DNA of 60,216 bases. Origin: an uncultured Clostridia bacterium. Its GTDB lineage: Bacteria > Bacillota > Clostridia > TANB77 > CAG-508. A program made the translations under genes and the position numbers. The stretch is taken from contig CALXRX010000010.1 in the NCBI GenBank assembly GCA_944390975.1, forward strand, positions 1 through 60,216. The letters are read 5' to 3'. Under the pieces are notes generated by a model. It had not been told where the DNA came from. It searched no databases and was given only the letters and a program-made list of their open reading frames with translations. Numbering within the stretch: position 1 is the first letter of the stretch; each line of letters begins with the position of its first letter. Shown here piece after piece: positions 19,231 to 28,594 of the stretch.

Positions 19231-19467
19231 ATGAATAAATATAAAAATAGAAGTAATATTTCTGGAAAAGTTATACATGATAGTAGGATCGAACATAATC
19301 TATCTCTTGAAAAACTATCTAATAAACTAGAATTAATGGGCGTAACTTTATATCCAAATGATCTTTATTTGATAGAAAAGGAACAAAGAATTGTAAAAGA
19401 TTTTGAACTAATGGCTATATGTAAAATTCTTGGAATTGATACTAAAAAGATAAAAGAAGAATTATAA
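19231..19467 (+). CDS. Small XRE-family regulator
   Basis: A 78-residue helix-turn-helix protein. SGKVIHDSRIEHNLSLEKLS, DLYLIEKEQRIVKDFE and LMAICKILGID fit a compact Cro/CI fold with recognition helix near residues 42-55. It faces away from the DUF6809-like gene and toward the leftward Spo0A-C-like gene. It probably controls one or both promoters in this part of IME1. Confidence 0.75.
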   Translation: MNKYKNRSNISGKVIHDSRIEHNLSLEKLSNKLELMGVTLYPNDLYLIEKEQRIVKDFELMAICKILGIDTKKIKEEL

Positions 19468-19482
19468 ATAACAGTTATTTTA

Positions 19483-19842
19483 TTATGAATTTACTTTCAC
19501 AACACGATAAATCTCTTCTATAATATTTTTATTAGTAAAATAATACTTATCATATTCAAAACCAAAGATTTTTTCAAAATTATTAATACATTTTTCTTCA
19601 ATTCTACTATTTAAAGTATAGGAAATATCATTTTTTACTTGTTTTGGAGTAATATTGCCATAAGTATTAGCAATATTTATATAAATATCTTCAATAGTAA
19701 AAATATCGCTATCAGACATTAACATTATTTGAATTGCTTTATTAATATATTTTGTGCCTCTATGACTTGTGTTTAATCCTATTGAACGGAGAATATTGAA
19801 TATAATTATAACTTGTTTTGAATTAATGGTAGATTGTTCCAT
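19483..19842 (-). CDS. Stand-alone Spo0A C-terminal-like DNA-binding protein
   Basis: A 119-residue protein that aligns along its length with the effector domain of the sporulation master regulator Spo0A. Seen are IIFNILRSIGLNTSHRGTKY (compare the Spo0A IIHEIGVPAHIKGYLYL region), INIANTYGNITPKQVKNDI (recognition helix region) and NFEKIFGF. There is no receiver domain, so it cannot be switched by phosphorylation. The start ATG 19842 has AAGGAGG upstream. It may regulate IME1, or interfere with Spo0A sites in the host; both are inference. Confidence 0.7.
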   Translation of the reverse strand: MEQSTINSKQVIIIFNILRSIGLNTSHRGTKYINKAIQIMLMSDSDIFTIEDIYINIANTYGNITPKQVKNDISYTLNSRIEEKCINNFEKIFGFEYDKYYFTNKNIIEEIYRVVKVNS

Positions 19843-19937
19843 TATATATCCTCCTTTCAAAAGTTACGAAATTGAAATCTCGAAATTCACATTACAATAT
19901 AAATATACTAATTTTATGTGAACAAATCAAAAAAATT

Positions 19938-19981
19938 AAATCTGCACTCTATGCAACATAAAATGCGTAGAGTGCAGATTT
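19938..19981. other. Long hairpin bordering the IME1 non-coding region
   Basis: AAATCTGCACTCTA (19938-19951) pairs with TAGAGTGCAGATTT (19968-19981). The stem extends by one U-G pair and GCA/TGC to an 8-base loop. Read leftward it is followed by a T-rich run and could terminate transcripts arriving from the right. Confidence 0.6.
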
Positions 19982-20067
19982 TAAAGTGAAAAATAATGAT
20001 TTATTTATTTCTTCTATACCCAAAAACAAAACTTTTCTTAGTTTTTATAAAATAATGCACATAGTGC

Positions 20068-20335
20068 ATAAAAAAGCACGGGAGAATAAGCAAACCCCCG
20101 CGTTTTGTGCTTTAAAGCTTAATCTTTAAAGCTATCATTAATATAAATTATTGCGATTAATTTATATTAACTAACTTAATTATATATTAATTTCTAGGTA
20201 TTTTCAAGTTTTTTACAAAAGTTGGGGGAATTAATCCCCCAAAAGCCGAATGGCTTTTTTGAAAGTAGTCTTTTAACCACCAGGGCATCCGACCACCATA
20301 ACACATTAGATGTTTCATTCGCTTATTCTCCCGTA
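20068..20335 (-). ncRNA. Candidate structured RNA closed by a 13-bp long-range pairing
   Basis: CGGGAGAATAAGC (20079-20091) and GCTTATTCTCCCG (20321-20333) are perfect complements enclosing about 230 nt. Inside are TTGGGGG/CCCCCAA (around 20222-20241), AAAGCC/GGCTTT (around 20242-20260), and TTAATATAAAT/ATTTATATTAA (around 20138-20170). Leftward, the domain ends in a T run after AAAGCAC/GTGCTTT. A minus-strand promoter (TTGAAT, 17 bases, TATAAT, about 20549-20520) lies upstream, with an intervening hairpin (TCCTAG/CTAGGA) at 20411-20431. No RNA family recognised. Confidence 0.5.
20187..20318 (-). CDS. Possible 43-aa ORF inside the structured region (doubtful)
   Basis: An ATG at 20318 follows a GGGAG that is itself one arm of the long-range stem. 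The peptide starts MKHLMCYGGRMPWW and ends KNLKIPRN. Several codons double as hairpin arms (GGGGGA...CCCCCA), which argues for RNA structure rather than protein. It also contains an in-frame CGG codon. It could be a leader peptide, but a chance ORF is as likely. Confidence 0.25.
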   Translation of the reverse strand: MKHLMCYGGRMPWWLKDYFQKSHSAFGGLIPPTFVKNLKIPRN

Positions 20336-20649
20336 AATAGAATTCTTTTAGTAAAAATTCAATGAATTATACGAGAAAATAAGCTAAGCTTAAATCTTGT
20401 ATAAAAAATCCTAGCAATCGCAATACTAGGACATTATCATTGAACGTCAAGCATTGCGCTTGCGGAACGGATTGATTAATTAAGATTTCAAAGCCATTCT
20501 TTTTACTATAAAGTTATGTTAATTATAACATATTTTTACGAACAATTCAATTACTCGCAATGTCATGCTTCTGCTAAGTTTTTGATTTGAAATAATAGTA
20601 AAAAAATGGTATAATTATATTGTATATGTTTATTAAAGGATGTGATCTT

Positions 20650-21363
20650 ATGGCAGAATTTAATAAAAAAGAGTTTGGAGAAAAATTAAAAAAATTCAGA
20701 AAAGATAAAGGGTTGAGTCAAGAAAACTTAGCAATGGCTATTGGAAAGAATGCCACAACAATTGGAAGATTTGAAAGTGGTAAACTTATTCCAAATGCAG
20801 AGCAGATATTTTTATTATGTAGAGAATTAGAAATTGGCGAAAATGACTTGTTTAATACTAGTAATAAAATACATCATAAAGAAAGTTCAAATCCTTTTGG
20901 AACTAATACACTATATATTTATTATAATGGATACTATCCAACCATTAAAAAGTTCGATAAATGTAAATTTAAAATAAATATTATTCAAAAATCAAATTAT
21001 TGTGAACTAGAATTTGTAGATTATAAAACGAATAAAGTATATATGACAGGTCATATTGAAGCAGATAATTTTATGGCTTTTTTTAAGTTTAATAATTATA
21101 AACCTACTAGTCCTCGATTAGAATGCACTCAGATAAATATAAATATAGCAAACGGAATGGATAAATTAATGAGAGGAGTTTTGTTTTGCACCAATGGAAA
21201 ATATGAAACAAGTAGTAGGAAATGTTTTATATCAAAAACTGATTTAGAATTTACAGACGAAATGTTAGAAAGTTTAAAAATAACTCAAGAAGAGTTTGAA
21301 AAAATGAAGAAAATAAATATATGTTACTTAGATATAGAGAATAAAGAAGATTTTGAAGAATAG
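20650..21363 (+). CDS. XRE-family regulator with C-terminal sensor-like domain
   Basis: A 237-residue protein from the ATG at 20650 (AAGGA upstream). Residues 5-65 form a classical helix-turn-helix (FGEKLKKFRKDKGLSQENLA, NATTIGRFESGKLIPNAEQI). The C-terminal 160 residues are an unrecognised alpha/beta domain with two Cys (CKFKIN, CELEFVD). It begins the rightward half of IME1 and is the likely master regulator of its excision and transfer genes. It is followed by its own terminator. Confidence 0.75.
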   Translation: MAEFNKKEFGEKLKKFRKDKGLSQENLAMAIGKNATTIGRFESGKLIPNAEQIFLLCRELEIGENDLFNTSNKIHHKESSNPFGTNTLYIYYNGYYPTIKKFDKCKFKINIIQKSNYCELEFVDYKTNKVYMTGHIEADNFMAFFKFNNYKPTSPRLECTQININIANGMDKLMRGVLFCTNGKYETSSRKCFISKTDLEFTDEMLESLKITQEEFEKMKKINICYLDIENKEDFEE

Positions 21364-24482: not shown

Positions 24483-25457
24483 GTGAGTTATGCAATAATT
24501 AGAAATACTAATTATAAAATGAAAAATTTGGCAGGGATATATAGGCATAATGAAAGAAAAAATACCAATTATTCTAATAAAGATATAAATAGGCAAAAAT
24601 CTAAATTAAACTATTCAATAAAAACACCATACTCTACCTATGAAAAAATTTTTAGAGATTTAAAAAGTAAATATAATTTAAAAGGTATGATTAAAAAAGT
24701 AAGTAATGTGATGTGTGAATTTATTATTACATCGGATAAAGAATTTTTTGAAAGTATTGGAGAAGAAGAAACAAAACGATACTTTCAAACAGCTTATAAA
24801 TTTGTAGCAAATTATAATAATCTTGGAGAAGACTTTATTGTATCTGCAAAAGTACATCTTGATGAAAGCACACCTCATTTACATATCGTTTTTATTCCAG
24901 TTGTTTATAAAAAGGATAAAAACGGAAACAAAATAAGTAAAATTGCCTGTTCAGAATATTGGAAAGGTAAAGACAGTTATAGAAAGCTACAAGATAATTT
25001 TTACTCATATATGACAAAAAGTGGTTTTAATTTAGAACGTGGTAATAAAGAAGAAAATGAACATATCCCAATAGAAAAGTTAAAAAAGATTACTAATTAT
25101 GAAGTTCAAGAAATGTTTAAAGAAACATCACATACTGAACAAGAAAAAATAACAAATGATCTTGCTATTATAAGAGAAGATTATAAACGAGTAATCCATA
25201 AATTTAATACTTTAGCTAGTCGTTATACAAGGGTTAAGAACATAGTCGAAGAAACAATGAATAAAGCTGAAAAAATGCAAGAAGAAAATTTAGAATTAAA
25301 GCAAGAAAATCAAAGATTAAAAACTGAAAATTCGAGATTAAAAAACTATATAGATAAAACTTTTGAGTATGTTAGTTTGCTATTTGACTTTTCAAAAGAT
25401 ACTCTAAAAAGACTAGTAACTTCTTTTATAGAAGAATTAAAATCAAAAGACAGATAA
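24483..25457 (+). CDS. MobV-family relaxase (IME1)
   Basis: A 324-residue plasmid-mobilization relaxase that nicks oriT and pilots single-stranded DNA. The N-terminus SYAIIRNTNYKMKNLAGIY, the NYSNKDI segment and the metal-binding HLDESTPHLHIVFIP match MobM/Pre proteins. Residues 210-300 are coiled-coil. It is shorter than MobM (494 aa), having lost much of the C-terminal tail. The start is GTG with AAAAGGAG upstream. No coupling protein is in the element. Confidence 0.92.
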   Translation: MSYAIIRNTNYKMKNLAGIYRHNERKNTNYSNKDINRQKSKLNYSIKTPYSTYEKIFRDLKSKYNLKGMIKKVSNVMCEFIITSDKEFFESIGEEETKRYFQTAYKFVANYNNLGEDFIVSAKVHLDESTPHLHIVFIPVVYKKDKNGNKISKIACSEYWKGKDSYRKLQDNFYSYMTKSGFNLERGNKEENEHIPIEKLKKITNYEVQEMFKETSHTEQEKITNDLAIIREDYKRVIHKFNTLASRYTRVKNIVEETMNKAEKMQEENLELKQENQRLKTENSRLKNYIDKTFEYVSLLFDFSKDTLKRLVTSFIEELKSKDR

Positions 25458-27349: not shown

Positions 27350-28594
27350 ATGAGTTATGCTATTATAAGAAATGATAAATTAACAAGAGTAGATGCACAA
27401 GGGTCATACATTCACAATGATAGAAGGTCAAAAGGCCATTCTAATAAAGATATTGATCCTACAAGAACACATCTTAATTTTTGGTGTAAAAAAAATGAAC
27501 TAACTTATATAAAAGAATTTGATAAAATTAAAAAGGCATATGATTTAAAAGGCACTATTAGAAGTAATAGTAATATCATGTGTGAAATGATGATTACTTC
27601 TGATAATGCTTTTTTTAATAAGATTGGTTTAGAAGAAACAAAGAGATATTTCAAAGAAAGTTATAAATTTGTGTGTAATTATAATAATCTTGAAGAAAAG
27701 TATATAGTATCTGCAGCAGTGCATTTAGATGAAACTACACCACACATGCATTTAGTTTATATACCAGTAGTTCATACAAAAGACAAAGAAGGAAAAGAAA
27801 TTGATAAAATATGTTGTAGAGATTTTTGGAAAGGCAGAGATAGTTACAGACAACTACAAAATGCTTTTCACAAATATATAACTTCAAAAGGTTTTGATTT
27901 AGAGCGAGGTTTACCAGTAGAAGAAACTGGAACGAAACACGAAAAAATAGAAGATTTAAAGAAACTGACTAATTTTAAAAATACTAAAAAAGTATTAGAT
28001 ACTATAAAACTAGAATTACCAGAAACACCAGATATAAATGATATTAAACTAATAAAACTTAATAGAGAAAAAGTAGAAAATGAAATTATTAAACCCAAAG
28101 ATGATATGATAGAAAAACTATATAATGAAAAAGTTTCTTTACAAAAAGAATTATTAAAACAAGTAAATTTAGTTAACGAGGCTGAAAAATACCAAAAAGA
28201 AAGAGATTTTATACTAGCTGACAATAAAGAATTACACAATGCTGTAGAACATTTAGAACACGAATATAAAAAGAAAAATAATACTCTTGATTTGAGATTT
28301 GAAAATAGAAAAAGAAAATTAGAGCAAGAATTTGAAAATAAGGAATTTGACATTGAATATAAATATAAAAGTAAAATTAAGTCATTAGAAAAAGAAAATA
28401 ACCATCTACACAAAATTATTGATAAATTCTATGTAACTGTTGAAAAATTTATTTATTGGGTTTGTCATAGATTTGGTATGGGTGAATCTAAAGAATTAGT
28501 TAGAAAATTTGAAGAAGAAACTCACACTTTTATTGATCCAGTAGAACAAATAAAAAAGGAAGAATTAGAAAAAGAATGGGATTTAGAAATGTAA
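27350..28594 (+). CDS. MobV-family relaxase (IME2)
   Basis: A 414-residue relaxase, longer than its IME1 relative. Seen are SYAIIRNDKLTRVDAQGSYI, HSNKDIDPTRTHLNFW, and the metal-binding HLDETTPHMHLVYIP. Residues 240-370 are a long coiled coil. The C-terminus VEKFIYWVCHRFGMGESKEL resembles tails of Mob proteins that contact partner proteins. A GAAGGAGG site precedes the ATG, 48 bases after the predicted nick. Confidence 0.93.
   Translation: MSYAIIRNDKLTRVDAQGSYIHNDRRSKGHSNKDIDPTRTHLNFWCKKNELTYIKEFDKIKKAYDLKGTIRSNSNIMCEMMITSDNAFFNKIGLEETKRYFKESYKFVCNYNNLEEKYIVSAAVHLDETTPHMHLVYIPVVHTKDKEGKEIDKICCRDFWKGRDSYRQLQNAFHKYITSKGFDLERGLPVEETGTKHEKIEDLKKLTNFKNTKKVLDTIKLELPETPDINDIKLIKLNREKVENEIIKPKDDMIEKLYNEKVSLQKELLKQVNLVNEAEKYQKERDFILADNKELHNAVEHLEHEYKKKNNTLDLRFENRKRKLEQEFENKEFDIEYKYKSKIKSLEKENNHLHKIIDKFYVTVEKFIYWVCHRFGMGESKELVRKFEEETHTFIDPVEQIKKEELEKEWDLEM

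Follow-up and report, generated by a model that had tools for sequence, protein, structure and literature searches.

A probable two-RNA switch over a micro-ORF with a change of frame at CGG in a mobilizable element of uncultured gut Clostridia

Messenger RNAs for small peptides that are locked by a small RNA, and programmed +1 frameshifting, are both known kinds of control. In the par/Fst system (pAD1 RNA I/RNA II, PMC7472228), the mRNA of a hydrophobic small peptide has a helix at its 5' end and a stem that masks its Shine-Dalgarno sequence (SD); a small RNA complementary to the translation start begins with a loop-loop contact and then covers this start, with a specificity that varies between copies. 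The two par/Fst RNAs are convergent and share direct repeats and a bidirectional terminator. In prgX/prgQ/Anti-Q of pCF10 (PMC6540685), a transferable-element control region, an XRE-type regulator with an RRNPP repeat domain is encoded divergently from a short-peptide transcript regulated by a small RNA; Anti-Q is an antisense RNA from the opposite strand that acts by termination, and the peptide iCF10 is cleaved, secreted and hydrophobic. With respect to decoding, low-GC Firmicutes lose the tRNA for CGG and CGG reassignments are known among them (PMC8629427), unassigned codons provoke frameshifts (PMC6207430), and +1 shifts occur at UGG_(A)/CGG_(A) in sponge mitochondria, where skipping an extra base 5' of GGA (T, rarely C) restores the frame (PMC5009743). 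Here we describe a locus on the minus strand of a 60,216-nt stretch of DNA from an uncultured Clostridia bacterium (contig CALXRX010000010.1 of assembly GCA_944390975.1; the window hereafter), which probably forms a two-RNA switch: a small RNA, RNA2, would lock the micro-ORF of a second RNA, RNA1, and the peptide would be read with a +1 shift at a CGG codon. The element is real, conserved and unmatched, and we did not find these two known kinds of control described in combination; a literature search, which covered subscription journals thinly, returned no report of this system.

The likeness to par/Fst is one of layout. Judged by sequence, the mRNA of a small peptide has a 5' helix and an SD-hiding stem, a small RNA complements its translation start, and a loop-loop contact would come first. 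However, the two RNAs would be made in tandem from one strand, RNA2 is about 100 nt long with hairpins of its own and is absent in a subfamily, and the peptide is Gly-rich, not hydrophobic, and bears the CGG shift. As in pCF10, an XRE-type regulator is divergent from the transcript of a short peptide, but a beta barrel is predicted in place of the RRNPP repeat domain, RNA2 is a same-strand RNA, and the peptides lack a hydrophobic N-terminus or signal. The extra base 5' of GGA that makes a rare CGG recalls sponge mitochondria (PMC5009743); here it is always C, in a dozen-codon ORF of a bacterial mobile element, and in-frame homologues exist without it. Low GC, great rarity of CGG and the failure to find a tRNA that reads it are shared with Mycoplasma capricolum and the C. 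difficile group, in which CGG is unassigned and avoided (PMC8629427), whereas a single gene family here retains it at a constant, functional site.

Homologues were gathered in two ways. At the DNA level, 390 genomes of the family to which the source belongs yielded about 20 relatives of the 511-bp region from several genera, with the gene order integrase, excisionase-like, DUF3846, XRE, RNA region and Spo0A_C-like in nearly all of them. With the XRE protein as a handle (alignment A2), 49 loci were found in named assemblies, nearly all from uncultured gut Clostridia, and more XRE-linked loci were recovered from the same order; among 391 genomes sampled from the class, none outside the order had an XRE-linked element. 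Of the 60 unique upstream regions gathered, about 55 bear the element, and these belong to one order of uncultured gut Clostridia. The region's DNA had short chance matches only in phages and plasmids, the XRE protein had no match in phages or plasmids and a single 49-residue match, confined to the helix-turn-helix (HTH), in viral contigs, and tblastn with the micropeptide against plasmids returned no match. The RNA locus is best explained as part of the region that controls an integrative mobilizable element in these uncultured gut bacteria.

A first-pass annotation of this DNA had proposed a structured leftward RNA in which two distant complementary arms close a single domain. The complement (20079-20091/20321-20333) is present and grows to 17 nt at 94% (20078-20094/20318-20334). 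The minus strand of 20060-20520 folds at -136.1 kcal/mol against -89.0 +/- 5.3 for dinucleotide shuffles (z -8.8, 0 of 100 as good); the plus strand likewise folds well (z -7.1), so the strand is not given by folding alone. The annotated leftward terminator-like hairpins (20432-20408, 20242-20222 and 20069-20055) were found, and the RNA matched no known class, no Rfam family reaching its gathering cut-off; at E <= 5 there were sub-threshold matches only, mostly at a palindrome (19938-19981). A retron or a group II intron, considered on account of the distant inverted repeat, was rejected, as no reverse transcriptase gene was seen nearby and Rfam gave no intron.

The annotated leftward promoter, TTGAAT-17-TATAAT (P1, 20522-20550, minus strand), is also present; it is a predicted promoter scoring 10/12 with a TG before the -10, and homologues have a counterpart at the same place, spaced by 17 nt in nearly all. 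From P1 would be made RNA1, a micro-ORF mRNA of about 294 nt (20222-20515, minus strand) whose ends are placed from the fold and the homologues. Its probable terminator is a GGGGG/CCCCC hairpin (20222-20242, minus strand), conserved in the alignment although its T-run is weak in several homologues. Between the two arms lies a second leftward promoter that the annotation did not contain, TTGAAA-17-TATAAT (P2, 20179-20207, minus strand; 11/12). P2 was found in 40 of 40 unique RNA2 homologues, with a spacing of exactly 17 and a hairpin following at once. The RNA2 homologues measure 77-117 nt from presumed start to intrinsic terminator, and the predicted fold together with these homologues puts RNA2 of the window at about 103 nt (20070-20172, minus strand; estimated ends). 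Because a conserved promoter separates the arms, they most likely sit on two separate, same-strand tandem RNAs: the pairing is real, but rather than closing one domain it is probably an antisense contact.

Comparison of the homologues supports two contacts between RNA1 and RNA2. First, hairpin T1 in the 5' leader of RNA1 (20408-20432, minus strand) exposes a putative kissing loop, ATTGCGATT (20416-20424), which is complementary to the loop AATCGCAAT (20150-20158) of RNA2 hairpin 1 (20138-20170, minus strand). Across loci these loops form exact complements of 7-10 nt. In 22 unique pairs the mean exact complement was 7.3 nt with the own partner and 4.1 nt crosswise, a result matched by 0 of 20,000 permutations. 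There are 14 or more distinct loop sequences, each with an exact partner, including ATTGCGATT, ATTACGACT, ATTGAGACT, CTGCAAC, ATTGAGG and TTGTAGC. Second, the stretch of RNA1 from the SD (GGGAG) to the ATG of the micro-ORF (20316-20334, minus strand) is the predicted target of the RNA2 segment TTTGCTTATTCTCCCGT (20078-20094, minus strand), which overlaps the loop and 3' arm of the RNA2 terminator hairpin. This contact forms perfect or nearly perfect runs of up to 26 nt, for example AACGAGGAGACCCTAAACAAATGAA with TTCATTTGTTTAGGGTCTCCGTGTT (L018) and AAATATGGAGTAAACCGATGAAA with TTTCATCGGTTTACTCCATGTTT (L023). Over 37 unique loci the mean own score was 38.5, compared to 18.9 for mismatched partners, and 0 of 20,000 permutations reached the sum. 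The compensatory changes in the long stem on which the first-pass annotation had made its proposal depend were looked for in these homologues and are strongly present. In the window the SD/AUG contact has a computed duplex energy of -28.5 kcal/mol and the kissing loop one of -13.0 kcal/mol. Separately, one assembly, CANEHB01, holds three distinct copies of the module (L005, L066 and L084) with different kissing loops and start regions, and these copies within one genome make specificity testable.

RNA1 would also lock itself. In its predicted fold an intramolecular anti-SD, GCTTATTTTCTCGTA (20370-20384, minus strand), pairs with 20320-20334 as a 15-bp complement including G-U pairs; its covariation is weaker than that of the RNA2 contact. 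A 5'-3' helix joins GAATGGCTTT (20490-20499, minus strand) to AAAGCCATTC (20248-20257, minus strand), which lies after the ORF. This helix covaries in homologues (GAATGACT/AGTCATTC, GTCTTATCT/AGATAAGGC and GTCTTTTGAC/GTTAAAAGAC), the last two pairs being compensated changes even in distant relatives. Its 3' strand starts 0-4 nt from the shifted-frame stop in many homologues and 18 nt from it in the window.

The first-pass annotation had noted that an arm of the long stem covers the ACGGGAG ahead of the ATG of a 43-codon ORF (20318-20187), so that this start would be hidden. The hidden start stands; the 43-codon frame is not conserved across homologues, and in its place we propose a 14-codon product with a +1 shift at CGG, a frame switch that had escaped the annotation. 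The micro-ORF (20273-20318, minus strand) begins at the ATG 20318-20316 and ends GGT C|GGA TGC CCT GGT GGT TAA (MKHLMCYGG|GCPGG). The CGG of the frame change, recognised by its rarity and by the switch in conservation, occupies 20289-20291 on the minus strand, with the skipped C at 20291, and the joined product expected from the shift is MKHLMCYGGGCPGG. Skipping the C of the first in-frame CGG yields a single family of short peptides across loci, such as MEEFVYCGG|GCPGGYPIPAQVK, MEEREFCLDG|GSPGA and MRKQVAYP|GGSGGC; they have 13-28 residues, are rich in Gly, Cys and Pro, and on inspection show no hydrophobic or membrane segment and no hydrophobic N-terminus. In 29 unique main-type rows, the first two codon positions are nearly invariant while the third varies freely; this pattern follows frame A up to the C and frame B from there on. 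The shift codon is CGG in every shift ORF; its position in the peptide varies, the preceding codon is GGN, CCA, CCT, TTA or ATA, and in L019 and L087, where CGG comes later, the skip rule still holds. Five loci without the C need no shift and encode a peptide of this kind in frame 0: MKNRIFLDGGSPGGFPVYNIVDEI (L012), MSYLGGGTPGYPPVI (L021), MNKVFFSPGGCPGGLPIIY (L074), MEEKELNSKFPGGTPGC (L131) and MEEKELNSNFPGGCPGC (L132). Coding conservation extends over two frames that meet at one fixed point, as for programmed +1 frameshifting; these data support the joined reading frames, from which we infer the shifting event itself.

CGG is among the rarest codons in the window, with 5 occurrences among the 14,222 codons of its long ORFs. 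The arginine tRNA genes found in the source genome have the anticodons TCT, CCT and ACG only. An anticodon-arm pattern for CCG matched in 8 of 78 related genomes, with one match tRNA-like and rejected by ARAGORN, whereas a control pattern for ACG matched in 59 of the 78; a pattern for the TCG anticodon gave no tRNA-like match in the relatives. The tRNA list of genome G042 was too incomplete to be used. The host thus appears to be without a tRNA for CGG, a conclusion that is not final as the genomes are incomplete. Such an absence agrees with the loss, frameshifting and sponge mitochondrial data cited above (PMC8629427, PMC6207430, PMC5009743).

Based on these comparisons we consider the following mechanism likely. 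RNA1 would be transcribed away from the XRE gene as the mRNA of a 13-28-residue peptide, its own fold hiding the ribosome-binding site and the 5'-3' helix tying its 5' end to the region just past the stop codon. RNA2, made from P2 directly downstream on the same strand, would first kiss the T1 loop with the loop of its hairpin 1; its terminator loop and arm would then pair with the SD/AUG region and block translation. When the lock is open, ribosomes would come to a CGG that the host apparently has no tRNA to read, pass over one base (+1) and complete the conserved Gly-rich peptide near the 5'-3' helix.

Several observations weigh against this scheme. Best promoter scores of 9-11 also arise in shuffles of AT-rich DNA; as good scores are not rare there, the case for P2 rests on its constant place, its spacing and the anatomy that follows. 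The significance of the permutations is overstated because the loci are related, and more weight is carried by the large number of different loop types that are compensated. Eight loci (L089, L090, L093, L094, L125, L126, L128 and L129) keep a shifted micro-ORF without a recognisable RNA2; in the RNA2-less subfamily the micro-ORF (..FP|GGSGGC or ..FP|GGGGGC) is directly followed by a strong terminator. As this subfamily has the shifted micro-ORF without RNA2, RNA2 is not essential to the module. L010 likewise has no recognisable RNA2, and the contacts of L068 and L132 are imperfect. Finally, the source genome is 88.5% complete and draft assemblies often miss tRNA genes, and CGG occurs, though rarely, in ordinary ORFs here and is therefore probably decoded somehow.

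The strongest rival, which we nevertheless hold to be unlikely, is a type I toxin-antitoxin locus in which a toxic peptide, with RNA2 as the antitoxin, would stabilise the element. Its appeal comes from the mobile location and from a lock that matches par/Fst in its 5' helix, SD-hiding stem and combination of a kissing loop with an SD-covering contact (PMC7472228). A toxin of this type would, however, be one that lacks both hydrophobic character and a membrane segment, that a whole subfamily carries without RNA2, and whose expression would be held very low by a shift at a poorly decoded codon.

Somewhat less probable still is a leader-peptide attenuator, in which the movement of ribosomes on RNA1 is what matters, and a stall or shift at CGG alters the terminator and permits read-through to RNA2 and the Spo0A_C-like gene. 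The shifted stop is indeed often 0-4 nt from the 5'-3' helix, just ahead of the GGGGG/CCCCC hairpin. Against this stand variation at third positions only, which indicates selection on the amino acids, the five homologues that lack the CGG and yet keep the peptide motif in frame, and the strong terminator directly after the ORF in the RNA2-less subfamily.

A single long RNA, whose arms pair within one transcript and in which P2 is a chance match, would account for how well the single strand folds with its long stem, but we find it improbable: P2, with its TATAAT and 17-nt spacing, is fixed in place directly ahead of RNA2 hairpin 1 in all 40 unique homologues, RNA2 has a terminator of its own, and a hairpin with a T-run stands between the ORF and P2. 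The weakest alternative, and a very improbable one, is that no frameshift occurs, either because the second frame starts at an internal ATG, GTG or TTG (present in 25 of 41 unique shift ORFs; in the window, an ATG at -9) or because CGG is reassigned, for which low-GC Firmicutes offer precedents (PMC8629427), and the product is that of frame 0: 16 of the 41 ORFs have no such start in the second frame, which excludes internal initiation as a general explanation, frame A is conserved right up to the C, frame 0 is unconserved past the CGG and in L006 ends at once (CGG TAG), and in the homologues without the C a single frame runs through both parts.

If the preferred reading, a small-RNA-locked micro-ORF shifted at CGG, is true, the locus would be a natural example from bacteria of a sense codon, apparently unassigned, that signals a frameshift, and the homologues from which the extra base has been lost would serve as its internal control. 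Further gains would be a small-RNA lock that is compact, works through two contacts and allows its partners to be predicted from sequence, and a new micropeptide family, regulatory or toxic, carried by the mobile elements of a large and uncultured lineage of the gut.

The divergent gene (20650-21363, plus strand) encodes an XRE repressor-like protein with an HTH and a predicted 8-strand beta barrel. A fold search with the whole model covers the HTH only; the barrel was predicted and compared on its own. The best structural match had Z 9.9 and an rmsd of 3.2 over 97 aligned residues, among mostly avidin-like and designed barrels, and Foldseek gave a weak best E of 0.058; the likeness to avidin-like barrels, which bind ligands, may be no more than a common arrangement. 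The C-terminal domain did not match the RRNPP helical-repeat peptide-binding domain. Our guess is that the micropeptide acts within the cell on this repressor, as a candidate ligand of the modelled barrel. A wider proposal, which we offer tentatively and think may well be wrong, is a code-gated switch: a mobile element would exploit, for a programmed +1 shift, a sense codon that its usual hosts cannot decode. The peptide, a signal or an anti-repressor and the ligand of an avidin-like-barrel repressor, would then be made only in hosts lacking the tRNA and under a same-strand two-contact RNA lock.

Downstream of RNA2, the conserved neighbour is a Spo0A_C-like DNA-binding protein (19483-19860, minus strand). 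Palindromes of the type TGCAnnnnTGCA lie between them at 20055-20070 and 19938-19981, and most homologues carry them; in appearance they resemble operator sites of the Spo0A_C-like protein, or iterons. Beside the same gene, a small HTH-like ORF (19231-19467, plus strand) has a weak HTH_19 match, and relatives of it occur at two other loci (family F13). At another locus, L035 (G234:C37), part of the RNA region occurs a second time and two Spo0A_C-like genes lie side by side, an apparent partial duplication. Further along the window are two neighbouring Mob_Pre-like relaxase ORFs (24483-25457 and 27350-28594), the second named by its resemblance to the first only, and their closeness suggests two adjacent or nested mobilizable elements.
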